NCBI RefSeq assembly: GCF_000410515.1
Contig: NC_021500.1
Location: 992,001 to 1,056,000 of the forward strand
Length of the DNA stretch: 64,000 nt
Direction of reading: 5' to 3'
Source of the DNA: Enterobacter sp. R4-368
GTDB lineage: Bacteria > Pseudomonadota > Gammaproteobacteria > Enterobacterales > Enterobacteriaceae
The position numbers and the translations under genes are program-made. This document shows positions 1 through 54,690 of the stretch, piece by piece. Below the pieces are notes generated by a model. That model saw nothing but the letters and a program-made list of their open reading frames with translations. It had not been told where the DNA came from and made no database searches. Each line of letters begins with the position of its first letter. The first letter of the stretch is position 1.

Positions 1-987
1 GGTAAAATGGGTATCGACATCGCTGGAAATAGTGTGCCGCGCTATAGCGCGAAGATGCGCAGGTCGCCGCGCTGAAAACGCCGTGGCGTGCTGGCAACCC
101 AGGAACGGGGCAACAAACTCGCTGGAGTAATCAACACCGGTTGAAAGCTCAATCAAACGGGAATAGAGATCGCCCGGGCAGCGCCGGGTAAGTTCGATAA
201 GCCAGAAATCATCGTCATTGGCTATAAACTGGGTGTGCAGCAAACCGTCGACCAGTTGAAGCTGGCGCACCAGGGTTTGCATACATTCGCTAACGCGATC
301 TCGCATGCTTTCCGTCAGGGAAAGACTCAAGCTGCTACTGTTGACCTGCCAGGGGTAGACGGTGCAGAACTCATCGACGAAAAATTCGCAGACAATCTCC
401 CCGCCACGGATAAACGCAGAGTGGCTGTACAGCGCGCCCTGGCAAAAGGTTTCAATCACGCACTCGCCGTTTTGCGAAGCGCTACGGGCTTTTGCCACCG
501 CATCGTCAAGTTCTGCGGCCTGCTGCACCAGCGTAATCCCGATGCCGCTATAAGCATCAATCGGTTTTACCAGCAACGGAAACGGGAGATGGCGCGCATC
601 TTCAGCACGTCTTACCGCACGCGGTATTGGATAGCCCTGTTGCTCTGCCCAGGCGCGGAAGCGATCTTTAAGAAAAAGCGTGTCGCTGACATCCGGCGAG
701 TCAAAGCCAGGCAAGCCCAGTTCGGCGGCAACGCGGCTCCCCGTCAGGTACGAGACATCGGTCACGCCAGGCGTAATGGCCGCAATATTGTGTTCGCGGG
801 CAATCGCTAACACCGCATCGCGGTCGGCATAATTCTGGGCTTTGGCAATATCCGCCGATTTCATTCCCGCATCGTGCGGCTTACCGCTACACACCAGCGT
901 GGTAAAGCCCGCCGTTTTGATCGCCCGTTGTAAAGGCAACGAGGCAAATCCCGCATCGAGGATCATCGCAGTGCGCATAGCCGTCAT
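1..987 (-). CDS. ATP-grasp domain protein (partial, C-terminus cut by window edge)
   Basis: An open minus-strand frame runs 329 codons from the ATG at 987 to the window edge without a stop. The N-terminal third looks like a pre-ATP-grasp nucleotide-fold region. ATP-grasp features follow: a lysine in LVKP (K141) with a small-residue loop (YSGIG, 146-150), an ATP-binding VIE (E179) and a late metal-binding ELTRRCPGD segment (from E265). The family joins a carboxylate to an amine or similar nucleophile using ATP. The start overlaps the stop of the upstream aminotransferase as ATGA, implying translational coupling. Inference: it may form an amide on the amino sugar made by that enzyme; carbamoyl-phosphate-synthase-like or other ligases remain possible. 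The substrate cannot be told from sequence. Confidence 0.8.
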   Translation of the reverse strand, partial: MTAMRTAMILDAGFASLPLQRAIKTAGFTTLVCSGKPHDAGMKSADIAKAQNYADRDAVLAIAREHNIAAITPGVTDVSYLTGSRVAAELGLPGFDSPDVSDTLFLKDRFRAWAEQQGYPIPRAVRRAEDARHLPFPLLVKPIDAYSGIGITLVQQAAELDDAVAKARSASQNGECVIETFCQGALYSHSAFIRGGEIVCEFFVDEFCTVYPWQVNSSSLSLSLTESMRDRVSECMQTLVRQLQLVDGLLHTQFIANDDDFWLIELTRRCPGDLYSRLIELSTGVDYSSEFVAPFLGCQHATAFSARRPAHLRAIARHTISSDVDTHFT

Positions 988-2138
988 GCACCCTCCAGCG
1001 AAATCACCGCCGCACCGGGTGTCACGGTTGCGGCGACACCGCGAATGATGTCAGTGATACGCTGTTGATCTTCGCGCGCCAGCCCCGGATAAATCGGTAA
1101 GCACAGCACTTTGTCAGCGATAGCATTTGCGCACGGCAAATTCTCTTTCTGCGAGGAAGCAAACCCGCGATACATACTGAAAGAGCTAATCAGCGGGTAG
1201 AAATAGCGACGCGTTAAAATGCCGGCATTTTTCAGCACGTCATAAAGCGAATCGCGATCGATGCCGAACTCCGGTTCAATCAAAACCGGGAAGTAAGCAT
1301 GGTTCCAGGTCACATCAGCAGGCACATCCAGCAGACGAACGCCGTCGATCCCCTGCAATAATTCCACATAATGCTGGTAAAGCGCCTGGCGATCGGCCAG
1401 TGCCTGATCGATATGTTTAAGCTGTAGCAAGCCAAATGCCGCTTCAACTTCGTTCATTTTGGCATTGATACCAGGCGCAACAACGCGCGTTTCCCCGGCA
1501 AAACCGAAGTTTTTCAAATAATCGATACGCTGCTTGGTCCGCGCATCGTGGCAAATAATCGCGCCGCCTTCGAAGGTGTTAAACACTTTCGTTGCGTGGA
1601 AACTCAGCACCGACAAATCCCCGTGATTCAAAATACTGACGCCATTTTTCTTCACGCCAAACGCGTGCGCCGCGTCATAAATCACTTTCAGGCCGTAGAT
1701 ATCCGCGACCTGCTGGATTTTGTCCACATCGCAGGGAATGCCGTAGCAGTGAACCGGCATAATCGCCGTGGTCTGCGGGGTGATCAGCTCTTCGACACGC
1801 TCAGGATTGATATTGTAAGTTTGCGGATCGATGTCGGCGAAAACCGGCGTCAGGCCATTCCATAACAGGGTATGGGAGGTGGCAACAAAGGAGTACGGCG
1901 TGGTAATGACCTCGCCGGTAACGCGGAGCGCCTGCAGTGCGGTGAGCAGCGCCAGCGTGCCGTTTGCGAACAGGCAGACATGTTTCACGCCAAGGTAACT
2001 TGCCAGCGCCTCTTCAAGTTCCTGATGAAAAACACCGCCATTAGTAAGGATCCGGTTGTTCCAGATCTTCTCAAGGTAAGGAATAAACTCTTCCAGCGGT
2101 GGCAAAAGAGGGCTGGTAACAAAGATATTATTGTCCAT
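984..2138 (-). CDS. DegT/DnrJ/EryC1-family PLP-dependent sugar aminotransferase
   Basis: 384 residues. The family converts keto groups of nucleotide-linked 4- or 3-keto-6-deoxyhexoses to amines with PLP. Visible marks are the cofactor-binding NGTLAL (59-64), the Asp of DAAHA (D155) that contacts the pyridine nitrogen, and SFHATKVF with the Schiff-base lysine K184. The frame is open for 26 codons further upstream, but ATG 2138 begins the family-like sequence and has an AGG about 8 nt upstream. The stop overlaps the ATP-grasp start by 4 bp. Position in a glycosyltransferase island next to flagellin suggests it makes the amino sugar for flagellin decoration. The exact nucleotide sugar (viosamine, Fuc4N or Qui3N type) is not resolvable here. 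Confidence 0.88.
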   Translation of the reverse strand: MDNNIFVTSPLLPPLEEFIPYLEKIWNNRILTNGGVFHQELEEALASYLGVKHVCLFANGTLALLTALQALRVTGEVITTPYSFVATSHTLLWNGLTPVFADIDPQTYNINPERVEELITPQTTAIMPVHCYGIPCDVDKIQQVADIYGLKVIYDAAHAFGVKKNGVSILNHGDLSVLSFHATKVFNTFEGGAIICHDARTKQRIDYLKNFGFAGETRVVAPGINAKMNEVEAAFGLLQLKHIDQALADRQALYQHYVELLQGIDGVRLLDVPADVTWNHAYFPVLIEPEFGIDRDSLYDVLKNAGILTRRYFYPLISSFSMYRGFASSQKENLPCANAIADKVLCLPIYPGLAREDQQRITDIIRGVAATVTPGAAVISLEGA

Positions 2139-2310
2139 AGACAAACCTGCGCGCGTAGGAATTATCTGTTCATCATAACGACGCGCCTGGCGAGCTATCG
2201 GTGAAACAGGGGGCATTTTGTTATGCTTTTCCCCCCGGTGCTAAAGGTAAACTGGCCGGGTCTGCGCAGGCGGCGGAAAAATGGCAGGGCTTACGTAATC
2301 CCCTGTCAGC

Positions 2311-2342
2311 AAAAAACCCGGTAATGCCGCACTACCGGGTTT
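2311..2342 (-). terminator. Intrinsic terminator after the glycosyltransferase genes
   Basis: Ten-base-pair stem (AAACCCGGTA with TACCGGGTTT) around a 9-nt loop, followed in minus orientation by a T-run (AAAAAA on the plus strand at 2311-2316). It lies just past the stop of the 1147-residue glycosyltransferase and separates that operon from the aminotransferase/ATP-grasp pair. Confidence 0.85.
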
Positions 2343-2359
2343 CATTGCCGCAAAATGAC

Positions 2360-5300
2360 CTATTGTTTCAGCATGGCGAGCAGCGCTTGTTGGCGCGGTT
2401 CATCAAAGAGATAGCGATCTGTTAGCAAGTTGTTGATTTGCTCTTGATTCTCGCAGAGCGGATTGCCTTTGGTGGCGAAATCGTCGATGGCCTGCGTCCA
2501 CAGCGCCATTTTAGGTTTCAGTTTCGTCGCGAAGTCATACTCGCTGAAACAAGGGAAATCACTGCAAATAACGGTGATATTTCGTGCGGCGTACTGCAAC
2601 ACGGCATAACTATCCGCAAACCGATGCTCATGGTTATTATCGCGGAACAAAATCACCGCATCCGGGCTCAGCGCATCCAGCGTCTCCACCGAGACAGGAT
2701 TAGCATGGTATCTGAAGGTGCCCTTCACCAGCGGGTACCAGCTGGCTGGACACTCGCCAAAAATATACCAGTCAACAATGTGATGCGTTTTTTCTATCAG
2801 CTGAAAGATAAAGTCCCGCTCTTTCCCGGTGAGAGAAAAAACAGGGCATAACACGCGCCGCGGAGCATTCACCGCAACGGCTTTACCCTGTGAAAACCAT
2901 TCCTCCGGGAGGTAATCAGGGATTCGCAAAACGTCCAGCCCTTTGCCGCGCCCCCATTTTTCCAGCGCGGGATTTAATACCAGCCAGCGATCAAACGGCA
3001 GAGATTGGCTATTCTGGCGTGCAATCAGCGGCTCGGCATTTTCATCGAAAAGACAATGCACAACCTGCCCCGTCATCGCGCGAAACTGCGTAACGGTGCT
3101 GATATCACGTTCACTAAACTGAGCATCCAAAATGGTGATGGCGGGACGCGTTCTGAGTAACGCGGGTAGCGCAGGCAACGCATCGTTGATAACAAGCGCG
3201 ATCTCGCCGGCTTCTTCCATCATGCGGAAATAATGCGTTAAGCGTTTTGTATAAATGGTCTGCGAACGCAAAACCAGCAATACCACCGGCGTGTGCGCCG
3301 GGCTTGCACAACAGCGGTTTTGTATAACGCTGGCGTCCAGCGTAAAGAGTGGCGAACTCAGCGACAAAAAGTTGCTATACGCGGGATCGCCTGCAAATAC
3401 CTCGCTGAAGTCTTCCATCAGCGCGGTCATTTGCGGTAGCAGTGATTGTCGGTACTCACTCTGCATAAAGTGATAATTGTCCGAGGCAATGATGCTGTAC
3501 GGCGTCCAGACAGAGACGTAACCCATTTTTTGCACAGCCAGACAAAACGCCGCCGAACTCACTTCAAGCGACGTGTATTTTTCATCCAGCCCGCCTGCCT
3601 GCGTGAAACACTCTTTTTTGACAAGCAAACACAGGCTATTGAGCACGGAGTAATTTTGTTCACACTGATAGCGAGCCTGATAACCGAAAGATTGCCAGTC
3701 TTCTCCAGCGCCGACATTCGCGATGCCATTATCCGCGCCAACAATCATCCCTGCGCTGATGAGCTTTTTATCAAAGCTAATGATTTTCGGCCCGCTACAC
3801 GCCACTTCCGGGCGCACCATCGGATTGAGTAAGGTGTTTAACCAGCTTTTTAAGACGAAAACCGATCTTACGTCTAATAACAATAAAGACGCGCCCGCCG
3901 CGTGTGACGCAGCAATATTTACCGCCTGCACCTCACTGCAGTTATTCAGCTCAAGCACCTGAACCTTGCCGGGTAATAGTTTTTCAACTTCCCGCGCGGT
4001 CTGCAAAACAATCGGGTCGGTGGTGTTTATCACGGGGATAATAATGTCGTAATCATGCCAGTCGGTGTTATCCACCAGCGACGCGATACAGCGCGTCATT
4101 AAATTAGCATCATGATTATGGGTTAAGACAACACTCACCCGCCCCGTATTATTCAGTGGATAATGGATCCGCCACGCGACACCGTCGCAATACTCCACAT
4201 GATCTACCGGCAAATTACGCTGCGCGGCGAAAGTCCCGACAATGCCGCCCTCAGTCTCAATGCTTGCCGGAGTGAGCATTTTCTCGTCAACAATATTGAC
4301 GATATCCGCATAATGACCAATGGCGGCGGTATCATAACGGGCAATCAATTTTGTGATGAGATCGAATTCAAAAGCCAGCCCGGCGTGAGGGTCCCAGCCA
4401 CCGCATTCCAGCCATGCCGATGCGCGAAAGAAAACCCGTTGCAAATAACGGGATGGCGCACTGACAAAGAGATCAAGATTAAATTCTGGCTTGAAAAAAT
4501 GCGTCACCGAATTCGCATGCTTCACGGCTTCATCAGCATAAATAGCCTGGGCAGCGGAGCGCTCTTGCAGTGTTCGGGCTAAACGATACACGCTGTCATG
4601 CCTGTAGGTCACACCGGCAGGAACCACCTGTAACCAGTCGACAGAAGTGGTCTGAACCAGGCTGGCAAAATTGTGCTGGTAATGCTGAAAATCGACAACC
4701 GAGAGGGTGTTATCCGTTGCGTCGTGATGCGCGCCATCCTGCACGAGAAGAATGCGGGCATTCGGCAAATTGCCTAATTGTCCACGTAAAGAATCCACGG
4801 TGATATTAACAGCGGCGCTGTCGCCGTGCGGATTGAGAATAACGAACAGCAACGCCAGTGAAGAGCGCGTATCACTGCGTTTTTCCGCCACGCTATTTTC
4901 AAGCCAACCCTGAAACGTATTGCGGTAATGTTGTTGTGCTTTTTCTTGCGCTTTACGTTGTGTTTTTTCTATGAAGTCCCTGAATTGCACCAGCGATCGT
5001 TCGCGTCTCAGTAATAATTGCTCGCGCGACTTATACAGGTTTTCGCGTGCGTGTTCGATAGCTTCCGGGGTATTCATCAGCGTATAACCTGCATTACCGT
5101 TTTCGCGTATCGTTTTTTCACTTAATGCATAGCTTTCGTAACCTGGCGCGATTAACCCAACAACCGGACAACCACACAAATTCGCCAGCAGACAGGTCCC
5201 GGAAGATTCATAGGTATATAACACGCGCCCGCGCTTGAGAACTTTTGCCAGTTCTTCGAGCGGCAGCGGGTTTTGCATACTCAGTACCGTCAGATTTTTC

Positions 5301-5803
5301 GGCAGTTTGTCATATTCAATAACGCTGGCGGGTAAGCGGTTAATATAGAGTAAGTCCAGATCCTTATGAGGATAATCATCCTGGAACAGCTCGAGGTCGT
5401 AATTCTCAATATTTAACAGCGCCGGTTGAAACTCTTTTTCGGCGAATTCGTCGCGATACCAGAAAAACAGATCGTCAGGCGAAAAATCGAGGCGATTGCC
5501 ATTCATCACCCCTTCTCTGTTGAGCATATAGCGCATTACCACCGGCGCGCGCAGCGGGTTGCCGCTCGTCACTTCCGGGTAAACCGCAATCCACGGCTCA
5601 CCTGAGTTCTGTAATTGCGTATAATCGTCTTCCGTAAGACGCGGTGTATTCCATTTTGGGTTAACCGTCCCGCCCACAATCCACGCTTTTCCGCCTGAAT
5701 TATTGATTGTCTGGCAAAAATAGTGCAGCACTTGTATCCCGGCCGACGCCTCCGAGTAATCGGGTGCCACAATCAGATAGGGGTACTGAGCGAGGTTATT
5801 CAT
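2360..5803 (-). CDS. Giant multi-domain glycosyltransferase-like protein with a degenerate GT2 domain
   Basis: 1147 residues. The N-terminal ~260 residues resemble a GT-B/GT4-type module (start LIVAPDYSEASAGIQ). A charged, probably helical linker lies near 265-300, then a GT2-like region (~320-540), a second GT2-like domain (~555-800) and a C-terminal GT-B-like module (~830-1147). The second GT2 domain aligns without gaps to that of the next gene (RPEV; GY..VWTPY), but NNDCE there is DVRSV here and the acceptor-base DVDLGLR is replaced by VSSAAFCLAV, so catalysis by that domain is doubtful. ATG 5803 has AAGGA 8 nt upstream. Inference: partner, scaffold or diverged enzyme in flagellin glycosylation. 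O-antigen or capsule transfer is less likely from context. Confidence 0.8.
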   Translation of the reverse strand: MNNLAQYPYLIVAPDYSEASAGIQVLHYFCQTINNSGGKAWIVGGTVNPKWNTPRLTEDDYTQLQNSGEPWIAVYPEVTSGNPLRAPVVMRYMLNREGVMNGNRLDFSPDDLFFWYRDEFAEKEFQPALLNIENYDLELFQDDYPHKDLDLLYINRLPASVIEYDKLPKNLTVLSMQNPLPLEELAKVLKRGRVLYTYESSGTCLLANLCGCPVVGLIAPGYESYALSEKTIRENGNAGYTLMNTPEAIEHARENLYKSREQLLLRRERSLVQFRDFIEKTQRKAQEKAQQHYRNTFQGWLENSVAEKRSDTRSSLALLFVILNPHGDSAAVNITVDSLRGQLGNLPNARILLVQDGAHHDATDNTLSVVDFQHYQHNFASLVQTTSVDWLQVVPAGVTYRHDSVYRLARTLQERSAAQAIYADEAVKHANSVTHFFKPEFNLDLFVSAPSRYLQRVFFRASAWLECGGWDPHAGLAFEFDLITKLIARYDTAAIGHYADIVNIVDEKMLTPASIETEGGIVGTFAAQRNLPVDHVEYCDGVAWRIHYPLNNTGRVSVVLTHNHDANLMTRCIASLVDNTDWHDYDIIIPVINTTDPIVLQTAREVEKLLPGKVQVLELNNCSEVQAVNIAASHAAGASLLLLDVRSVFVLKSWLNTLLNPMVRPEVACSGPKIISFDKKLISAGMIVGADNGIANVGAGEDWQSFGYQARYQCEQNYSVLNSLCLLVKKECFTQAGGLDEKYTSLEVSSAAFCLAVQKMGYVSVWTPYSIIASDNYHFMQSEYRQSLLPQMTALMEDFSEVFAGDPAYSNFLSLSSPLFTLDASVIQNRCCASPAHTPVVLLVLRSQTIYTKRLTHYFRMMEEAGEIALVINDALPALPALLRTRPAITILDAQFSERDISTVTQFRAMTGQVVHCLFDENAEPLIARQNSQSLPFDRWLVLNPALEKWGRGKGLDVLRIPDYLPEEWFSQGKAVAVNAPRRVLCPVFSLTGKERDFIFQLIEKTHHIVDWYIFGECPASWYPLVKGTFRYHANPVSVETLDALSPDAVILFRDNNHEHRFADSYAVLQYAARNITVICSDFPCFSEYDFATKLKPKMALWTQAIDDFATKGNPLCENQEQINNLLTDRYLFDEPRQQALLAMLKQ

Positions 5804-5821
5804 CGATATTCCTTGAACGTT

Positions 5822-5843
5822 TGCCAGGCCCGCCGGCCTGGCA
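5822..5843. other. Intergenic hairpin between the two giant glycosyltransferase genes
   Basis: Perfect 9-bp stem (TGCCAGGCC with GGCCTGGCA) and a 4-nt loop in the 47-bp gap, just upstream of the ribosome-binding site of the 1147-residue gene. There is no T-run in either direction, so it is not a standard terminator. It may tune mRNA stability or translation of the downstream cistron (inference). Confidence 0.55.
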
Positions 5844-5850
5844 GAGAAAA

Positions 5851-8800
5851 TTATGCTTTTGGTAACCAGCCCTGCTGCCAGTCATCCAGGCCTGCGCCGC
5901 GCAAATACCAGTTATTCAGCACCGCTTCACGCAGCGCATCGCCCTGCCGGTGACGTAAATCGGCATCGTTGATATAGGCCTGAACCGCGTTCATCCAGTC
6001 TTTGAAGCGGTTTTCCACCAGCGTCACCGGCAGATCGCAACGGTAAGGCACGATGTCGGTGGCAATGATCGGTACACCGCAGGTGCCGATCTCCAGCAGA
6101 CGCAGGTTGCTCTTACATTCGTTGAACTGATTAATTTCCAGCGGCACTAATGCCAGGTCGAGATTGAGGCTGGCCAGTTTTTCCGGGTACATTTCAAACG
6201 GCACACCAGGGTGGAATTCACAGCGGACATTGCGTGGTTTCATGCCCATAAAGACCCATTCCACCTTCCCTTCCAGCGCTTTAATCAGCGGCAATAAGAT
6301 CTCCAGATCACCGGTATGAGAACTGCCGCCAGCCCAGCCAACGCGCACTTTTTTGCCCGTGCCACGCTCGCTCAACAGATGTTTCCACTGGTTCGGCGCA
6401 AGACGGTTTTGCGCGATGCGGATGTCGCTATGGAAACGGCTGTAGGCGTCCGCCAGCGGCGCGGTGGAAACCACCAGCCAGTCGGCGCTGTCGACGACTT
6501 TGCGAAAATTCTTCACCATTTGCTGTGGGAAGTGCTGACGAGAACCATTTTTAATCGGCACATTAAGCAGGTAGTCATCATACTCCAGCACGATTTTGGC
6601 ATTACTGGTGCTGCGTAACTGCTGAATAATCTGCGGAAAACGGCTGCCGGTAATCAGCTCCAGCAAAATCACATCCGGCTGCTGCGCGGCAGCTTCCATC
6701 ACACCTGGAATGGTGTTGGTCAGGCCGCCTTCAATCATTAAATGACGTTCCAGCGCTTTGAAGGGTTGCATCACCCGGTGGTGTCCACCGCCGACCCAGT
6801 TAACATGGTGCGCCAGCACCACCGGCAGCGGCCGACCCGGCAACGGCTGATGCAGGCGCGCCAGGCTCGCGCTGAGCGTAAACACCTGCCCTGCTTTTTG
6901 CATTAACGGATGGTATGACGGTTCTGCCAGCAGCCCTTGCCGCCATTCATTACGCAGCGTGGCAAAATCCGTCAGTAACGGGCGCTCCTGCACATGGAAC
7001 TTATCGCCCAGTAAGCGGGTGGCACCGCCCATATGTTTCACGCGGGCGTACGGTGTCCAGACATTGAGATAACCTTGCTGCTGCGCGCGTAACCCAAGAT
7101 CGACATCGGCAAAATAGAGCGGATAGGTTTCCTGGTTAAAACCGTTGAGGGCGAAAAAGACCTCTTTGCGCACCATCATGCAGGAAGCGCTTACCGCCGC
7201 CAGATTGCGCGGCGTTTTCAGATAGTGCTGGAAACCGTTGCTTTCGCCGTCGGCACCGTCGAACGCCACCTCAACACCATGCTGCACGCCGAGCAAAAAG
7301 CCGCCGTGCTGAATACGACCATCCTGATACTCCAGACGCGCGCCAACCAGCCCCACTTCCGGGCGTAGCGTCTGCTCCAGCAAGGCATCAAGCCAGCCGC
7401 CATCAATAATTTCACAATCATTATTGAGAAAAACCAGCACCTCACCGCGCGCCTGTTGCGCCGCAGCGTTGTTGATTTCAGCAAAATTAAACGGCGCGTC
7501 GTAGCGCAAAATACGTACCTGATCGATACCCAGCGCCGCCAGATCATTGAGAAAACGGCAGGCATCCTCTTCCACCGACTGGTTATCAACAATTAACAGC
7601 TCATAGTGCTGATAACGCGTTTTCTCCATCAAACTTTCAATACAGCGTTTGAGCAGGGCAACGCGATCGCGGGTTGGAATAATGATCGACACCAGCGGCT
7701 TTGCGTCCCAGTGGTAGCGCAGGCGTTTGATGTTCGCCGCTAACCCCTCTTCCAGCGAGGCCTGAATGCCAAGCCGTTGCAGGTGCGCCAGTAAAATCTG
7801 TTCGCATTCGGCCACCACCGCCGGATTTTCGCTCCAGCACGACGCCGCTTCCGGGCTCTCTACCAGCACTTCGGCAACGCGGCCCAGCGCCGGTGTTCCC
7901 TGCCCTTCAACAAAGCGCCACAGCAAGTCGATCATTGCCGCCTGCGGATAGTGGCTGTTCAGGCCACCGAGCTGGCGGGCAATATCACGCGAAAAAAGCA
8001 GAACGCGCCCGACATACGGCACGCCGCGCAGCAGGTCAATATTGACATCAGGACGCAGCGTCAGGAGTGGTTCGCCGTTTTCCGCGCGCGTCATTTCATC
8101 GCAATAAAACAGCCATGCATTTTGCTGCTGCATCCGTTGTTCGGCAAAGCGCAACAACGCATCATCCCGCAGTGTAAAACCGGCGGGGATCAGTAACAGC
8201 GCATCGGCATCTCGCGTGCTCAGCAGCGCATTTACTGCCGCAGGCCAGGCGTTATCGTCGGCAATGACATCAATGCTGGCGGCAGCCAGCGACTGGCTTT
8301 CTACAGAACTTCTGGTCTGCGCGCTGCGGTCGTTATCGCCAAGGATAACCACGCCGATACTGGCTTTGTCAGGGTTTGCGCCAGCGAAAGAGAGCAGCGC
8401 TTCGCGTCGCGCATCGCTAATCTGGCGATCTTCGAGCCAGCGGCTGAAGGAGTACTCGCTGGTCTGCTGCTGCGCCAGCACCGCTTTACTGTGGAAGTCC
8501 AGCGTATAGCGTGCTTTGTTATCCAGCTGGCGGGATTTTTCCACCAACGGCAGCGAAAAAATTGCCTCCAGCGCGGTATCCAGCGTCCATTTACTGACAA
8601 AAGTCGCACGCTGCGCCAGCGCCCACTCGCGTGCACTGGCATAACCGCTTTGCAGCAGTTCCACCCATTCATTGGCGTCCGGGCAGTTGTGCAGCGTCAC
8701 CGCGCAGAAATGATCGGCTTCATGACGCGCCAGGTTATCGGCATTCAGATAACCTTCAACGTAACCTTCGTTAACCAGGAACAGCGGGATCCCAAGCGTC

Positions 8801-9498
8801 AGCGCCTTCGCCACGCTTTCGTCATTACCGATGATCACGTCATACTGTTCCAGCCAGGCCGGTTCGAGGCGTTGTACCTGCTGGCTAAGATCGAACCACT
8901 CGATCTGGATCCCTGCCTCCCTCGCCTGCTGCTGAACTTCATACATTTCCGCCGACATTTTGCCCGCCATATAAAGTACGCGGGACAAGGTTTGCGCGTC
9001 GCGCGTGCGGGTAAATGCGCCAAAGCTGGCCGGTACTGACCACGGCAGATGTTTGAGCTGCGCGCTCTCCACACCAGTTTGTAGCAAGATGGCCGAAGTG
9101 CGGGCGGAGAGATCCAGCGTCAGTGCGGCAAACTGGTTTTCCAGCGCTACGCCCCACGGCAAGTAGAGATCGTTGTAATCGCTGAAATGGCGGAAAATCA
9201 TCGCGCCGTCGAGTTTCCCGGCTTCGATGGCATCAAGTAACTTTTCGCTAAAGAAGCCGCGATAGATCCAGATGGCGTTGTAATAGGTTTCCAGCGCCCC
9301 CTGCTTTTCGGTGATGACAGTAAAACGCCCTGTCGCGCTCAGGCGTGCGATTTCACTCGCTAACTTCTGCCCGGCGGTTGAGCTAATGACATCCACACGC
9401 CAGCCTTTGGCCAGCAAGGCGTCCGCAATATCGATAAGTTCAGAGGTATGGGGGGTAAACGCGTCAAATTGATCAACGCTGATTAGTATGCTTTGCAT
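5851..9498 (-). CDS. Giant glycosyltransferase: GT-B-like N-terminus, intact GT2 domain, GT4-like C-terminus
   Basis: 1215 residues. The N-terminal ~340 residues form a GT-B-like module, followed by a degenerate GT2-like stretch (~380-560). The complete GT2 domain (~600-860) starts PLVSIIIPTRDR, carries FLNND with the metal-binding Asp at D694, and has the acceptor-base motif YFADVDLGLR. A C-terminal GT1/GT4-type module (~930-1215) includes RVGWAGGSSH and the donor-binding segment SNLRLLEIGTCGVP. The family transfers sugars from nucleotide donors in the cytoplasm. ATG 9498 is preceded by AGGA at good spacing. It lies directly downstream of three flagellin genes, a position like that of fgt genes near fliC in pseudomonads, so flagellin is the most likely acceptor (inference). 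No signal peptide or membrane segment is seen. Confidence 0.87.
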   Translation of the reverse strand: MQSILISVDQFDAFTPHTSELIDIADALLAKGWRVDVISSTAGQKLASEIARLSATGRFTVITEKQGALETYYNAIWIYRGFFSEKLLDAIEAGKLDGAMIFRHFSDYNDLYLPWGVALENQFAALTLDLSARTSAILLQTGVESAQLKHLPWSVPASFGAFTRTRDAQTLSRVLYMAGKMSAEMYEVQQQAREAGIQIEWFDLSQQVQRLEPAWLEQYDVIIGNDESVAKALTLGIPLFLVNEGYVEGYLNADNLARHEADHFCAVTLHNCPDANEWVELLQSGYASAREWALAQRATFVSKWTLDTALEAIFSLPLVEKSRQLDNKARYTLDFHSKAVLAQQQTSEYSFSRWLEDRQISDARREALLSFAGANPDKASIGVVILGDNDRSAQTRSSVESQSLAAASIDVIADDNAWPAAVNALLSTRDADALLLIPAGFTLRDDALLRFAEQRMQQQNAWLFYCDEMTRAENGEPLLTLRPDVNIDLLRGVPYVGRVLLFSRDIARQLGGLNSHYPQAAMIDLLWRFVEGQGTPALGRVAEVLVESPEAASCWSENPAVVAECEQILLAHLQRLGIQASLEEGLAANIKRLRYHWDAKPLVSIIIPTRDRVALLKRCIESLMEKTRYQHYELLIVDNQSVEEDACRFLNDLAALGIDQVRILRYDAPFNFAEINNAAAQQARGEVLVFLNNDCEIIDGGWLDALLEQTLRPEVGLVGARLEYQDGRIQHGGFLLGVQHGVEVAFDGADGESNGFQHYLKTPRNLAAVSASCMMVRKEVFFALNGFNQETYPLYFADVDLGLRAQQQGYLNVWTPYARVKHMGGATRLLGDKFHVQERPLLTDFATLRNEWRQGLLAEPSYHPLMQKAGQVFTLSASLARLHQPLPGRPLPVVLAHHVNWVGGGHHRVMQPFKALERHLMIEGGLTNTIPGVMEAAAQQPDVILLELITGSRFPQIIQQLRSTSNAKIVLEYDDYLLNVPIKNGSRQHFPQQMVKNFRKVVDSADWLVVSTAPLADAYSRFHSDIRIAQNRLAPNQWKHLLSERGTGKKVRVGWAGGSSHTGDLEILLPLIKALEGKVEWVFMGMKPRNVRCEFHPGVPFEMYPEKLASLNLDLALVPLEINQFNECKSNLRLLEIGTCGVPIIATDIVPYRCDLPVTLVENRFKDWMNAVQAYINDADLRHRQGDALREAVLNNWYLRGAGLDDWQQGWLPKA

Positions 9499-9640
9499 CT
9501 GTCATCCTCATATCACCGCGCAAACCACCGGGGTGATAGCAAAAGGCGTTCCTGTCGTTATGCAATATTCTGGAGGACGAAAGAAAGATCGAGAGGCAAA
9601 ACAGCTAACAGAAAAGGCGTTATATCTGGCGATTGCAGAT

Positions 9641-9669
9641 AAAAAAAGGCATCCGAAGATGCCTTTTTT
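9641..9669 (-). terminator. Terminator of the first (fliD-distal) flagellin gene
   Basis: GGCATC-CGAA-GATGCC stem with a run of seven T in minus orientation (plus-strand A-run 9641-9647). It differs from the terminators of the other two flagellin copies, which are identical to each other. Plus-strand T-run present too, so possibly bidirectional. Confidence 0.85.
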
Positions 9670-9682
9670 AAGCGGTTGCGAA

Positions 9683-10588
9683 TTAACGCAGCAGGGACAG
9701 CATGGTCTGCGGAACCTGGTTGGCCTGGGCCAGCACGGAAGAACCAGCCTGCTGCAGGATCTGCGCGCGGGACATGTTCGACACTTCAGTCGCGTAGTCA
9801 GAATCCTGAATACGGCTGCGTGCGGAAGACAGGTTGTTCACGGTGTTGTTCAGGTTAGTGATGGTGGATTCGAAACGGTTCTGGGACGCACCCAGCAGGC
9901 TGCGCTGAGAGTCAACCGCTTTGATTGCCGCATCGATATCTGCCAGCGGGTTACCATCGGTGGTGCCGCCGCTGTTCACTGTACCGCTCAGAACGTCAAA
10001 GCCTTCAGCAGCGGTAGAACGTGCAGTACCGTTGATGGTCTGGCCGGTGGTCTGGGACGTTGCGCCAGAAGCGTTGAACAGGTTGTAAGAATCAGAAGAA
10101 GTCAGGCTGATGGAGATCTGCTCACCGTCTTTCGCGCCAACCTGGAAGTTGTAGCTGCTGGTGCCGGAACCGGTGTTCAGCACTTTGATGCCGTTGAAGT
10201 CGGTCTGGGTGGTAACACGGTTCACTTCTTCCATACGCTGGTTAACTTCAGCCTGGATGGAGTCGATGTCAGAGGCAGAGTTAGAGCTGTTCTGCGCCTG
10301 AACGGTCAGGTCACGGATGCGCTGCAGGTTGTTGTTGATTTCGCCCAGCGCGCCTTCAGCGGTCTGTGCCAGAGAGATACCGTCGTTCGCGTTACGTGCA
10401 GCAACGGTCAGACCGTTGATGTTGGAAGTAAAACGGTTAGCAATTGCCTGGCCAGCCGCATCATCTTTTGCACTGTTGATACGCAGACCGGAAGAGAGAC
10501 GCTCGATCGAGGTGCCCAGAGAAGACTGAGATTTAGTCAGGTTGTTCTGGGTCATCAGCGACAGGGTGTTAGTATTAATAACAGCCAT
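9683..10588 (-). CDS. fliC: Flagellin, copy 1
   Basis: 301 residues. Filament subunit exported through the flagellar type III apparatus. The sequence is essentially the conserved D0/D1 helices: the N-terminus begins [16 protein letters not shown] and the C-terminus ends [11 protein letters not shown]. Only a short central region (~140-215) replaces the D2/D3 domains of the ~495-residue Salmonella protein. That region is rich in Ser, Thr, Asn and Gly, as expected for an O-glycosylation acceptor (inference). Relative to copy 2 it differs at nine positions, all within 143-209. The gene has its own sigma-28 promoter and terminator. Of the three copies it lies nearest the glycosyltransferase genes. 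Confidence 0.97.
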
Positions 10589-10656
10589 GATAATTATCCT
10601 TCAGTGAGAAATTTATATTCCGGTATGGGCCAGCGGCTTCATCACCGTCATAATTG

Positions 10657-10683
10657 TTATCGACGACCTTGTAGAACTCTTTA
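10657..10683 (-). promoter_or_regulatory. Sigma-28 promoter of flagellin copy 1
   Basis: Minus strand reads TAAA-N15-GTCGATAA, one base from the FliA consensus TAAA-N15-GCCGATAA, about 70 nt upstream of the start codon. Confidence 0.9.
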
Positions 10684-10737
10684 GTAATTTTTCTATTTTT
10701 TGAGCAATTTTCGTCGAAAATATGCGCAAATCACAAA

Positions 10738-10765
10738 ATAAAAAAGCGCCGACAAGCGGCGCTTT
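10738..10765 (-). terminator. Terminator of flagellin copy 2
   Basis: Stem AAAGCGCCG with CGGCGCTTT, loop ACAAG, A-rich on the plus-strand left side (T-run in minus orientation). The hairpin is identical to that of copy 3, so the duplicated unit included the terminator. Confidence 0.87.
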
Positions 10766-10786
10766 CTGATACTGCATAATTTGCGA

Positions 10787-11692
10787 TTAACGCAGCAGGG
10801 ACAGCATGGTCTGCGGAACCTGGTTGGCCTGGGCCAGCACGGAAGAACCAGCCTGCTGCAGGATCTGCGCGCGGGACATGTTCGACACTTCAGTTGCGTA
10901 GTCAGAATCCTGAATACGGCTGCGTGCGGAAGACAGGTTGTTCACGGTGTTGTTCAGGTTAGTGATGGTGGATTCGAAACGGTTCTGGGACGCACCCAGC
11001 AGGCTGCGCTGAGAGTCAACCGCTTTGATTGCCGCATCGATATCCGCCAGCGGGTTACCATCGGTGGCGCCGCCGCTGCTTACCGTACCGCTCAGAACGT
11101 CGAAGCCTTCAGCAGCAGTAGAACGCGCAGTACCGTTGATGGTCTGGCCGGAAGTCTGGGACGTTGCACCGGTAGCGTTGTACAGGTTGTAAGAGTTGGA
11201 AGAGCTCAGGCTGATGGAGATAGTTTCGCCGTCTTTCGCGCCAACCTGGAAGTTGTAGCTGCTGGAGCCAGAACCGGTGTTCAGCACTTTGATGCCGTTG
11301 AAGTCGGTCTGGGTGGTAACACGGTTCACTTCTTCCATACGCTGGTTAACTTCAGCCTGGATGGAGTCGATGTCAGAGGCAGAGTTGGAGCTGTTCTGCG
11401 CCTGAACGGTCAGGTCACGGATACGCTGCAGGTTGTTGTTGATTTCGCCCAGCGCGCCTTCAGCGGTCTGTGCCAGAGAGATACCGTCGTTCGCGTTACG
11501 TGCAGCAACGGTCAGACCGTTGATGTTAGAAGTAAAACGGTTAGCAATTGCCTGGCCTGCAGCGTCGTCTTTAGCGCTGTTGATACGCAGACCGGAAGAG
11601 AGGCGCTCGATCGAGGTGCCCAGAGAAGACTGAGATTTAGTCAGGTTATTCTGGGTCATCAGCGACAGGGTGTTAGTATTAATAACAGCCAT
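10787..11692 (-). CDS. fliC: Flagellin, copy 2
   Basis: 301 residues, identical to copy 1 over residues 1-142 and 210-301. The nine differences from copy 1 are T143S, Q157T, T163S, D166N, F171Y, S174T, T181S, N205S and T209A. Most exchange Ser for Thr or change charge in the surface-exposed central segment, while the polymerising D0/D1 helices stay fixed. It has its own sigma-28 promoter, with a 5' leader nearly identical to that of copy 1. A second or third complete flagellin at the fliC locus is unusual; E. coli has one. Confidence 0.97.
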
Positions 11693-11760
11693 GATTATTA
11701 TCCTTCATTGAGTAATTTATATTCCGGTATGCGCCAGCGGCTTCATCACCGTCATAATTG

Positions 11761-11787
11761 TTATCGACGGGGTTAACGAACTCTTTA
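11761..11787 (-). promoter_or_regulatory. Sigma-28 promoter of flagellin copy 2
   Basis: TAAA-N15-GTCGATAA on the minus strand, same spacing and -10 variant as the promoter of copy 1. The downstream leader of about 80 nt matches copy 1 with only a few changes. Confidence 0.9.
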
Positions 11788-11826
11788 GGGATTTTTTTAT
11801 TTTTATTCGGCTTATTTTTCAAAGAA

Positions 11827-11854
11827 ATAAAAAAGCGCCGACAAGCGGCGCTTT
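11827..11854 (-). terminator. Terminator of flagellin copy 3
   Basis: Same stem and loop as the terminator of copy 2 (AAAGCGCCG, ACAAG, CGGCGCTTT), with an A-rich plus-strand flank giving the T-run in minus orientation. Confidence 0.87.
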
Positions 11855-11875
11855 CTGATACGACGTAATTTGCGA

Positions 11876-12781
11876 TTAACGCAGCAGGGACAGCATGGTC
11901 TGCGGAACCTGGTTGGCCTGGGCCAGTACGGAAGAACCAGCCTGCTGCAGGATCTGCGCGCGGGACATGTTCGACACTTCAGTCGCGTAGTCAGAATCCT
12001 GAATACGGCTGCGTGCGGACGACAGGTTGTTCACGGTGTTGTTCAGGTTAGTGATGGTGGATTCGAAACGGTTCTGGGACGCACCCAGCAGGCTGCGCTG
12101 AGTGTCAACCGCTTTGATTGCCGCATCGATATCTGCCAGCGGGTTACCGTTGGTGGTACCGCCGCTGTTCACTGTACCGCTCAGAACGTCGAAGCCTTCA
12201 GCAGCGGTAGAACGTGCAGTACCGTTGATGGTCTGGCCGGAAGTCTGGGACGTTGCACCGGTAGCGTTGTACAGGTTGTAAGAATCAGAAGAGGTCAGGC
12301 TGATGGAGATCTGCTCGCCATCTTTCGCGCCAACCTGGAAGTTGTAGCTGCTGGTGCCGGAACCGGTGTTCAGCACTTTGATGCCGTTGAAGTCGGTCTG
12401 GGTGGTAACACGGTTCACTTCTTCCATACGCTGGTTAACTTCAGCCTGGATGGAGTCGATGTCAGAGGCAGAGTTGGAGCTGTTCTGTGCCTGAACGGTG
12501 AGGTCACGGATACGCTGCAGGTTGTTGTTGATTTCGCTCAGCGCGCCTTCAGCGGTCTGCGCCAGAGAGATACCGTCGTTCGCGTTACGTGCAGCAACGG
12601 TCAGGCCGTTGATGTTGGAAGTAAAGCGGTTAGCAATTGCCTGGCCAGCAGCGTCATCTTTAGCGCTGTTGATACGCAGACCAGAAGACAGGCGCTCAAT
12701 AGACGTACCCAGAGAAGACTGAGATTTAGTCAGGTTGTTCTGAGTCATCAGAGACAGGGTGTTAGTATTAATAACAGCCAT
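11876..12781 (-). CDS. fliC: Flagellin, copy 3 (fliD-proximal)
   Basis: 301 residues. It differs from copy 1 at G82S, F171Y, S174T, T181S, D211N and S227T. It stands next to divergent fliD, the normal fliC position, and has a 5' leader unlike that of copies 1 and 2, so its upstream region is probably the ancestral one (inference). Conserved flagellin D0/D1 regions are complete and the central variable domain is as short as in the other copies. Confidence 0.97.
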   Translation of the reverse strand: MAVINTNTLSLMTQNNLTKSQSSLGTSIERLSSGLRINSAKDDAAGQAIANRFTSNINGLTVAARNANDGISLAQTAEGALSEINNNLQRIRDLTVQAQNSSNSASDIDSIQAEVNQRMEEVNRVTTQTDFNGIKVLNTGSGTSSYNFQVGAKDGEQISISLTSSDSYNLYNATGATSQTSGQTINGTARSTAAEGFDVLSGTVNSGGTTNGNPLADIDAAIKAVDTQRSLLGASQNRFESTITNLNNTVNNLSSARSRIQDSDYATEVSNMSRAQILQQAGSSVLAQANQVPQTMLSLLR

Positions 12782-12849: not shown

Positions 12850-12876
12850 TTATCGACCGCCTCTTAGCAACCTTTA
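12850..12876 (-). promoter_or_regulatory. Sigma-28 promoter of flagellin copy 3
   Basis: TAAA-N15-GTCGATAA on the minus strand, the same class III element as the other two copies, but in a different sequence context. Confidence 0.9.
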
Positions 12877-19060: not shown

Positions 19061-19903
19061 ATGAAATTAGCATTAATTGGTAATTGCCAACTTGAAGTTC
19101 TGGGAAATTTGATAATGAACGTCAGCGGGCTGCATGAAGGGAAGTTTGACGGCATTTTCAATATGCCTATTTATAAACTTAACGAAAATAATGACTTCAT
19201 TAACTTCTATCACGAATTAGAACAGTGTGATTTCATTTTTATGCAGCATCATGCAGAAAAATGGGGACCGTTTTCAACAGCAGCCTTAAGCCAATTCTTC
19301 GATATCACCATGCTACCGACCATGGAATCCCGCGTTTCAACGCCGCAGCTCGGGTACTATACAGATAAAATCCCTGATTTTATGGTCTACGTCGATTACC
19401 GCATGCTGCATCTTTATCTCACCAATGTGAGTATTCAAAACGTGGTGGAAGCGTACCATTCCGTGAGTTTTTCCAGTGAAAAACAAACCAATATGCTTAA
19501 AGAAGATGCGTTGAAATACCGCACACTATTTCAACAAGGCAAGCTTTATTTCGATTATTCAGAAGAGTATTTCCGCACCCTTTCCGCTAATCCGGATTGC
19601 TACTCAACGGTAAGCCACCCGGATAACTATAATCTGAGTTTGTTATTACAAGTGATTTATCATAAATCACTTGGCATTAACGAGAGTTTCGATCTGCAGG
19701 GCAATGATCTGCTTAAAAATTATGTTGCGCCAAAAATTGGCTCAGGTGATAACACGTATCATATGATGCGCCCGACGGGTCTGGCGCTGGCCGGTAAAAT
19801 TAATTATGCCTTTTTTGACAGCCAGAATCGGCGTGCGCTTAAACAAGCGCTGGTTAACTCCTCTTACTATACCGGTCTGGAAGACTGCTACCAGAACCTG
19901 TAA
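19061..19903 (+). CDS. WcbI-like polysaccharide biosynthesis / putative acyltransferase protein
   Basis: 280 residues. The N-terminal LALIGNCQLEVL carries the GNCQ motif of the WcbI family (Burkholderia capsule protein, putative acetyltransferase or CoA-binding fold). The rest is weakly conserved and mixed alpha/beta, without signal peptide or membrane segments. The gene is visibly more AT-rich than its neighbours and sits where E. coli has yedK and other genes, suggesting transfer. A good terminator follows. Role unknown; modification of surface glycans, perhaps the flagellin glycan, is a guess from family and region only. Confidence 0.65.
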   Translation: MKLALIGNCQLEVLGNLIMNVSGLHEGKFDGIFNMPIYKLNENNDFINFYHELEQCDFIFMQHHAEKWGPFSTAALSQFFDITMLPTMESRVSTPQLGYYTDKIPDFMVYVDYRMLHLYLTNVSIQNVVEAYHSVSFSSEKQTNMLKEDALKYRTLFQQGKLYFDYSEEYFRTLSANPDCYSTVSHPDNYNLSLLLQVIYHKSLGINESFDLQGNDLLKNYVAPKIGSGDNTYHMMRPTGLALAGKINYAFFDSQNRRALKQALVNSSYYTGLEDCYQNL

Positions 19904-54663: not shown

Positions 54664-54690
54664 TAAAGATCCCGCGCTTACTGCCGATAA
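54664..54690 (+). promoter_or_regulatory. Sigma-28 promoter of the YjfB-type gene
   Basis: TAAA-N15-GCCGATAA, a perfect match to the FliA consensus, 65 nt upstream of the small gene at 54755. Confidence 0.9.

Follow-up and report, generated by a model that had tools for sequence, protein, structure and literature searches.

A probable viosamine-type flagellin glycosylation island with an unusual second giant between fliC and fliA of Enterobacter sp. R4-368

The stretch of DNA analysed here, referred to as the window, comprises 64,000 nucleotides of Enterobacter sp. R4-368 (NC_021500.1, 992,001-1,056,000) and carries a large part of an island of genes inserted between the flagellin gene fliC and fliA. 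The island genes run head to tail on the minus strand and encode three flagellins in tandem, two giant proteins that we call GTA and GTB, an aminotransferase of the DegT family (DegT) and an ATP-grasp ligase (Table 1, with positions referring to the window unless the neighbouring stretch L002 of the same genome is named). These parts, which a preliminary description had listed on one strand, were all recovered as open reading frames (ORFs) and in Pfam searches with scores far beyond chance, the flagellins matching both Flagellin_N and Flagellin_C at E≤6e-31 and the GT2 match of GTB being the least strong. The extent described there has to be enlarged, as the window edge cuts the island inside the ATP-grasp gene and two further genes, coding for a Gfo/Idh oxidoreductase (Gfo) and an FkbM methyltransferase, follow in L002 before fliA is reached. 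Taken together, the genes are a complete fliC-to-fliA insert, with fliD, fliS and fliT located on its right in opposite orientation. The DegT and ATP-grasp genes overlap by 4 bases, and because relatives of DegT align from residue 27 of its ORF, the true start is probably found at this residue, at about position 2138, giving a protein of 384 residues. Named relatives belong to Kosakonia (97% for DegT of K. quasisacchari, 87-88% for those of K. arachidis, K. oryziphila and K. sacchari), and the source organism is, as judged from these relatives, a plant-associated Kosakonia. Near-identical DNA in E. coli genomes was not found by megablast, the only search applied for this purpose.

Table 1. Features of the fliC-fliA insert and of the flagellin genes.
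Feature	Position	Strand	Length (residues)	Remarks
sigma-28-like site upstream of fliC copy 1	12850-12876
fliC copy 1	11876..12781	-	301	Pfam Flagellin_N/Flagellin_C
terminator-like hairpin after fliC copy 1	11856-11830
sigma-28-like site upstream of fliC copy 2	11761-11787
fliC copy 2	10787..11692	-	301	Pfam Flagellin_N/Flagellin_C
terminator-like hairpin after fliC copy 2	10767-10741
sigma-28-like site upstream of fliC copy 3	10657-10683
fliC copy 3	9683..10588	-	301	Pfam Flagellin_N/Flagellin_C
GTA	5851..9498	-	1215	Pfam GT2, E 3.6e-17
GTB	2360..5803	-	1147	Pfam GT2, E 8.4e-06, weakest match of the island set
DegT/DnrJ/EryC1/StrS aminotransferase, VioA/DesI-like	984..2216	-	410 (ORF)	Pfam, E 2.3e-101
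ATP-grasp ligase, part in window	1..987	-	1-329 of 390	Pfam ATP-grasp_4, E 2.8e-08
ATP-grasp ligase, full gene	L002 17815-18987		390
Gfo/Idh oxidoreductase	L002 17804-16695		369
FkbM methyltransferase	L002 16654-15530		374
fliA	L002 15430-14711			followed by fliZ

Relative to the first copy of fliC, the second differs by 43 nucleotides and 9 amino acids and the third by 37 nucleotides and 6 amino acids. In flagellin residues 140-215, serine and threonine make up 31.6%, compared to 20.9% on either side. A sigma-28-like site precedes each of the three genes. The pattern used to identify such sites, with a 14-base spacer, was composed after reading these three, whose zero mismatches are thus by construction; their spacing equals that of the sigma-28 consensus. 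At ≤2 mismatches the window contains 10 matches compared to 2.0 expected, a number that is reached in 0 of 100 shuffles, and the same pattern with a 15-base spacer has 0 matches. One further zero-mismatch site is located outside the flagellar genes (54664-54690, +). The terminator-like hairpins downstream of copies 1 and 2 are weak on their own, with 20 such sites in the region compared to 16.0 in shuffles, and the hairpin and T run past the stop codon of copy 3 were found by eye and not listed by the terminator scan. A fourth flagellin gene of 87% identity stands alone and far from flagellar genes (G000:C2:4662956-4663858; L173 about 7953-8858, -); it is preceded by a sigma-28-like site with 2 mismatches and is also found in relatives. 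Two more distant flagellin genes of the same genome encode proteins of 417 residues, beside a FliD-like gene (L174 12404-13657), and of 484 residues (L175 7934-9388).

We have mapped the region in 15 Kosakonia genomes, including that of the window. DegT is present in 11 of them and always has an adjoining module, which in eight consists of the ATP-grasp protein and Gfo. Three of these eight (G000, G012 and G007) combine the module with GTA and GTB, the two giants for which, together with fliC, the preliminary description had advised a synteny search, and the other five (G003, G004, G006, G008 and G009, in G009 distributed over two contigs) with GTA and GTC, a different giant on the reverse strand. 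GTB occupies the place that is held by the VioT-like GTC in other Kosakonia. In the three other genomes with DegT, a run of reverse-strand genes takes the place of the module, accompanied by GTA and GTC (G005, G011) or by one GTC-like giant (G001). In G005 this run was found by Pfam to encode LuxC, LuxE, an AMP-binding protein, two transketolase parts and two SDR proteins; those of G011 and G001 were assigned from gene size and order. One giant and no DegT is found in G002, G013 and G014 and a GT41-like giant in G010. FkbM, the gene with the lowest G+C content of the window's island (0.440), is intact in G006 and present only as fragments between Gfo and fliA in the other four of the five GTC-type genomes (L036, L037, L038, L040). 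The number of flagellin genes beside the island is three in G000, G012, G003, G004 and G001, four in G011 and two in G010, with one intact copy and a fragment in G008, none in the stretch read of G002, and arrays cut by contig ends in the other six. The triplet on which the system was initially thought to be built is therefore rejected as its defining feature, since two to four copies are found alongside differing modification genes.

The association with flagellar genes extends beyond the genus. Among 392 genomes of the family, the ATP-grasp protein was identified in 10 at E≤1e-20, in nine of them beside fliC and/or fliA. For GTB, 16 matches were found at E≤1e-60, all of which are located beside fliC and/or fliA, with only fliA seen in G006 and G204 and only a fliC fragment in G266; seven of the 16 align from about residue 300 onward and are closer to GTC. 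In Enterobacter cloacae, Leclercia and Huaxiibacter, the order is fliC, a protein of 464-468 residues, a giant of 1116-1149 residues (for which a GT41 match in Pfam is shown in the E. cloacae record only), DegT, ATP-grasp, Gfo, FkbM and fliA. In a class-wide search at E≤1e-60, GTA has matches in 43 of 369 genomes, and nearly all of these start at about residue 400, in the core and not the head of the protein; among three such loci that were read, flagellin matches are present in L233 and L235 and not in L234. A relative of GTB, P0053, has matches in 28 of 79 Pseudomonas genomes at E≤1e-100, and of five loci of this type, L262 and L264 contain fliC matches, L263 and L265 none, and L261 a weak flagellin-like match in a gene taken for flgL by size.

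Islands of this kind have been described in the family. De Maayer & Cowan 2016 (PMC4875605) report glycosylation islands at the fliC-fliA site in 307 of 2,000 Enterobacteriaceae, which comprise 42 types and include, in 5 types, all 11 Kosakonia sampled. As in the window, these inserts contain glycosyltransferases, a DegT aminotransferase and an FkbM methyltransferase, whereas the main text of that study names no ATP-grasp or Gfo/Idh gene, both of which are found here. The combination of glycosyltransferase and sugar-biosynthesis genes that defines such islands is represented by GTA and DegT, and by GTB through its shared core only. The GT41-like and GT2-type giant families are described as mutually exclusive in the same study (PMC4875605); L227 harbours one of each in a single fliC-fliA island (1332-4754 and 9274-12534). 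Another counterpart is found in Dickeya dadantii 3937, where the interval between fliA and fliC is reported to contain six genes, coding for an O-GlcNAc transferase, a nucleotide sugar transaminase, a carbamoyl phosphate synthase, an oxidoreductase, a methyltransferase and a sugar transferase (PMC6637903). The 'carbamoyl phosphate synthase' is an ATP-grasp protein, and the cassette shares the order DegT, ATP-grasp, oxidoreductase and methyltransferase with the window's island. The transferases differ, with a GT41-type enzyme and a second one of another kind in D. dadantii and two giants with a GT2 core and no GT41 match in Pfam in the window. For the D. dadantii flagellin, masses of 32,170 Da (wild type) and of 31,034 and 28,890 Da (mutants of the two transferases) are given, with the lightest flagellin belonging to A4277, which is disrupted in the first transferase (PMC6637903). 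As a lead only, on the assumption of seven sites the differences of 1,136 and 2,144 Da would correspond to 162 and 306 Da per site. In L168 we find the order fliC, GT41-like gene, DegT, ATP-grasp, Gfo, methyltransferase, a protein of 477 residues and fliA. Because an ATP-grasp protein of D. dadantii shares 96% identity with the one in L168 and the gene order matches, we regard L168 as a cluster of the same kind. The DegT proteins of L168 and of the window are 71% identical, and the ATP-grasp proteins of the Dickeya type are about 52% identical to the window's.

In Salmonella, the flagellin methylase gene fliB sits between fliC and fliA. Neither the maf family, whose absence had been noted before, nor a flagellin lysine methylase family of the FliB type is found among the Pfam matches of the island proteins, the sole methylase being of the FkbM type. 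Linkage and published relatives support well the earlier proposal of an amino-sugar pathway for flagellin glycosylation in the position of fliB, but not its presentation as undescribed in enteric bacteria, in light of the islands in PMC4875605 and the flagellin masses for a matching cassette in PMC6637903. For Kosakonia itself, the open-licence articles of PubMed Central yielded no paper on flagellin glycosylation beyond genus counts in PMC4875605 and PMC7526173. Because the fliC-fliA insert is complete, the genes show the same linkage in other genomes and related systems are published, we consider it likely that the locus belongs to the enterobacterial fliC-fliA type of flagellin glycosylation islands and would employ the viosamine-based pathway outlined below. 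The locus is of an ordinary kind for the family, with a well supported role, in an unusual version. Its unusual features are a putative N-acylation module other than that of Pseudomonas and a second giant that has lost the active sites of its core.

The giants GTA, GTB and GTC share a GT2 and a C-terminal domain (100% probability in hhalign for each pair) and differ in their N-terminal heads. In GTA, the GT2 domain (about residues 600-880) contains intact NND and DVD motifs, and the C-terminal domain (about residues 900-1215) contains the E of its CKSNLRLLE motif. Residues of these motifs are catalytic or metal-binding. In GTB of all three genomes (G000, G012, G007), the former two motifs read DVR and SAA. 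In the window's protein the E is moreover replaced by Q, leaving it without the D of NND, the last D of DVD and the C-domain E. GTB is therefore not a plain GT2 enzyme. In an alignment, D occupies the third position of NND in all 12 GTA-type rows, in 9 of the 12 rows of GTC type and in 8 of the 63 of GTB type, the latter including near-duplicates. All 24 GTA and GTC rows retain the last D of DVD, compared to 33 of the 63 GTB rows, and the C-domain E is present in 24 compared to 17, with 34 Q, 5 A and 7 gaps among the GTB rows. The head of GTB (about residues 1-310, positions 5803-4874) is distinct from that of GTA and without a match in Pfam at E≤1. Whereas the head of GTC is a second GT2 domain (hhalign 96.3% with its own middle domain), no confident hhalign match was obtained for the heads of GTA and GTB (best 30.4% and 16.8%, the latter to the C domain of GTB itself), and a GT-B-like nature of the GTB head is for this reason no more than an impression. 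In L226 (9485-12987) and L171 (12953-16734), the giant is divided between two overlapping ORFs, as a result of either a frameshift or gene fission.

With these residues gone, a transferase activity of GTB is doubtful, and its head may either be a new glycosyltransferase domain or the entire protein a non-catalytic partner. We regard it as unlikely, although not by a wide measure, that GTB has ceased to be a glycosyltransferase and serves GTA, as the sole sugar transferase, in a structural or targeting role. Such a role would be consistent with the altered motifs, with three Kosakonia (G002, G013, G014) that manage with one giant, and with the ratios of nonsynonymous to synonymous substitution rates (dN/dS), which among the three genomes are 0.12-0.14 for the GT2-like part and 0.16-0.19 for the C part of GTB compared to 0.03-0.08 and 0.02-0.04 in GTA. 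The head of GTB is more conserved (0.06-0.10, with 0.04-0.06 for the head of GTA), and from these values selection acts on the whole of GTB, with its head most constrained. Also speaking against a mere partner, the ORF is intact in all three genomes, the E of a YE motif in the head is kept in 54 of 55 phmmer matches, and GTB holds the place of GTC. Moreover, the head is found without the core in two proteins (P0191 and P0187), one of them a Zoogloeaceae protein of 466 residues with TPR repeats and the other a protein of 395 residues from a 2-kb contig, with TPR matches below cut-off. Of two other candidates for a free-standing head, the 468-residue protein of the Enterobacter-type island was rejected because it shows no similarity, and the split GTB of G204 (ORFs of 478 and 699 residues with a 34-base overlap) was not used, as it might reflect a frameshift. 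As a tentative model, held with less than even confidence, the giants would be head-swapping proteins on a common GT2 and C-terminal core, in which GTB has lost its core sites stepwise and the head without Pfam match would act on flagellin as a novel glycosyltransferase domain, in this Kosakonia clade at the place where other Kosakonia have the VioT-type transferase.

The nature of the sugar is suggested by DegT. Its best NCBIfam model is DesI, a dTDP-4-dehydro-6-deoxyglucose aminotransferase (323.7 bits, next model 233.8), and its best PDB chain 2po3 (244.1 bits, next 167.6), which we take to be DesI. The protein is 66.6% identical over 359 residues to an aminotransferase of the Pseudomonas locus L086, which is followed by a methyltransferase of 240 residues, a hexapeptide transferase of 211 residues and a giant of 1179 residues. 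In content and sizes, although not in gene order, L086 fits a vioA/M/B/T-like cluster, with vioA, vioM, vioB and vioT of the P. syringae viosamine island encoding 372, 241, 213 and 1,173 residues (PMC3927599). The VioA likeness of the window's DegT derives from this comparison with L086. GTC is 43% identical to the VioT-like giant of L086 over 1198 aligned positions; with 24% over 863 residues, GTB does not qualify as VioT-type. The flagellin of P. syringae is reported to carry methylated, N-acylated viosamine (Qui4N), and its viosamine island together with fgt1/fgt2 shares a VioA-like aminotransferase and giant transferases with the window's island (PMC3927599). The two differ in location, the former being separate from the flagellar cluster and the latter inside it, and in the acyl group, which in P. 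syringae originates from vioS, vioR, acp and vioB (PMC3927599). This module is absent from the window's island, the part of the genome in which it was sought, and ATP-grasp, Gfo and FkbM are found instead. RmlB and RmlD, both scoring above cut-off, are encoded in the same genome at about 1.118 Mb. The sugar is thus probably of the viosamine type.

In the PDB, the L-amino acid ligase 3vot ranks second for the ATP-grasp profile (E 4.7e-15). The main ground for assigning a role in N-acylation to this protein is that the exchangeable neighbours of DegT could all modify a 4-amino group: related DegT genes at other flagellin loci are accompanied by N-formyltransferases (L223, L226), by a hexapeptide transferase with a LuxE-type module (L222) or by WbqC with a different ATP-grasp protein (L228). 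An ATP-grasp_4 protein, SfmE, is also found together with a methyltransferase in sfmABCDE of Shewanella oneidensis, where deletion of sfmE alters the flagellin mass (PMC3765264). SfmA of that system is similar to PseI and a different type of sugar is involved, a distinction that we draw from the published description (PMC3765264). It is improbable, and somewhat more so than a loss of activity in GTB, that flagellin is glycosylated with something other than N-acylated viosamine, such as a 3-amino sugar as made by QdtB, with ATP-grasp and Gfo serving another step, for example the making of a free precursor. DegT matches several aminotransferase families, including the PseC and WecE models and the QdtB structure 3frk, and reaches no NCBIfam cut-off, and the substrates of ATP-grasp enzymes are unreadable from sequence. 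Against such a sugar, DesI leads clearly in both comparisons, the nearest clustered relative of DegT resides in a vioA/M/B/T-like set, and N-formyltransferases are among its exchangeable neighbours.

In the pathway that we favour, the three flagellins would be made from sigma-28-like promoters and DegT would aminate dTDP-4-keto-6-deoxyglucose to dTDP-viosamine. The ATP-grasp ligase would link the 4-amino group to a carboxylic acid, which might be an amino or hydroxy acid, Gfo would make or adjust the acyl or sugar part, and the FkbM protein would O-methylate the product. GTA, via its intact GT2 and C-terminal domains, would attach or extend the glycan on serine and threonine residues in the centre of flagellin in the cytoplasm, and GTB might use its N-terminal head to add one more sugar, or else assist GTA. 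The likely chemistry predicted from the gene set is thus a dTDP-Qui4N that is amide-linked by the ligase, O-methylated and transferred to flagellin Ser/Thr.

Besides the doubtful activity of GTB, several observations weigh against this assignment. The DesI score of DegT is below the NCBIfam cut-off of 650, and the top PDB match of the ATP-grasp protein, 4dim (E 7.1e-26), named phosphoribosylglycinamide synthetase, outranks the amino acid ligase. The tenth ATP-grasp match, in G206, has no fliC or fliA in the 20 kb that were read. Finally, published islands average 5.2% lower G+C than the genome (PMC4875605), whereas most genes of this island do not appear G+C-poor when compared to the window (0.538), with 0.562 for GTA, 0.504 for GTB, 0.525 for DegT, 0.560 for ATP-grasp and 0.547 for Gfo. 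That the island instead modifies lipopolysaccharide, capsule or another surface glycan and lies near flagellin because of an insertion hot-spot is highly improbable, since nine of 10 ATP-grasp and all GTB-type matches are at a flagellin locus and mutants in the island transferases of D. dadantii alter the flagellin mass (PMC6637903), even though the fliC-fliA site accepts unrelated inserts (PMC4875605), the DegT, ATP-grasp, Gfo and FkbM set of G206 is away from fliC and fliA, and DegT relatives occur in loci without flagellin match (L084, L085, L087, L088).

With flagellin glycosylation being the preferred role of the island, the recurring, exchangeable slot beside one aminotransferase ties an ATP-grasp ligase to the chemistry of the flagellin glycan, and GTB and its relatives suggest that proteins which have lost two older active sites may contain a glycosyltransferase domain that has gone unrecognised. 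Such glycans may matter to the host in plant-associated bacteria: glycosylation mutants of D. dadantii (PMC6637903) and P. syringae (PMC3927599) were reported to fare worse on plants.

Two further features of the window are located apart from the island. To the right of fliDST, a gene of the WcbI polysaccharide-biosynthesis family (19061-19903, +) resides in a region of low G+C content (about 0.42 around it), and four tRNA-Asn (gtt) genes and one tRNA-Ser gene are found inside 21 kb (41419-62303).

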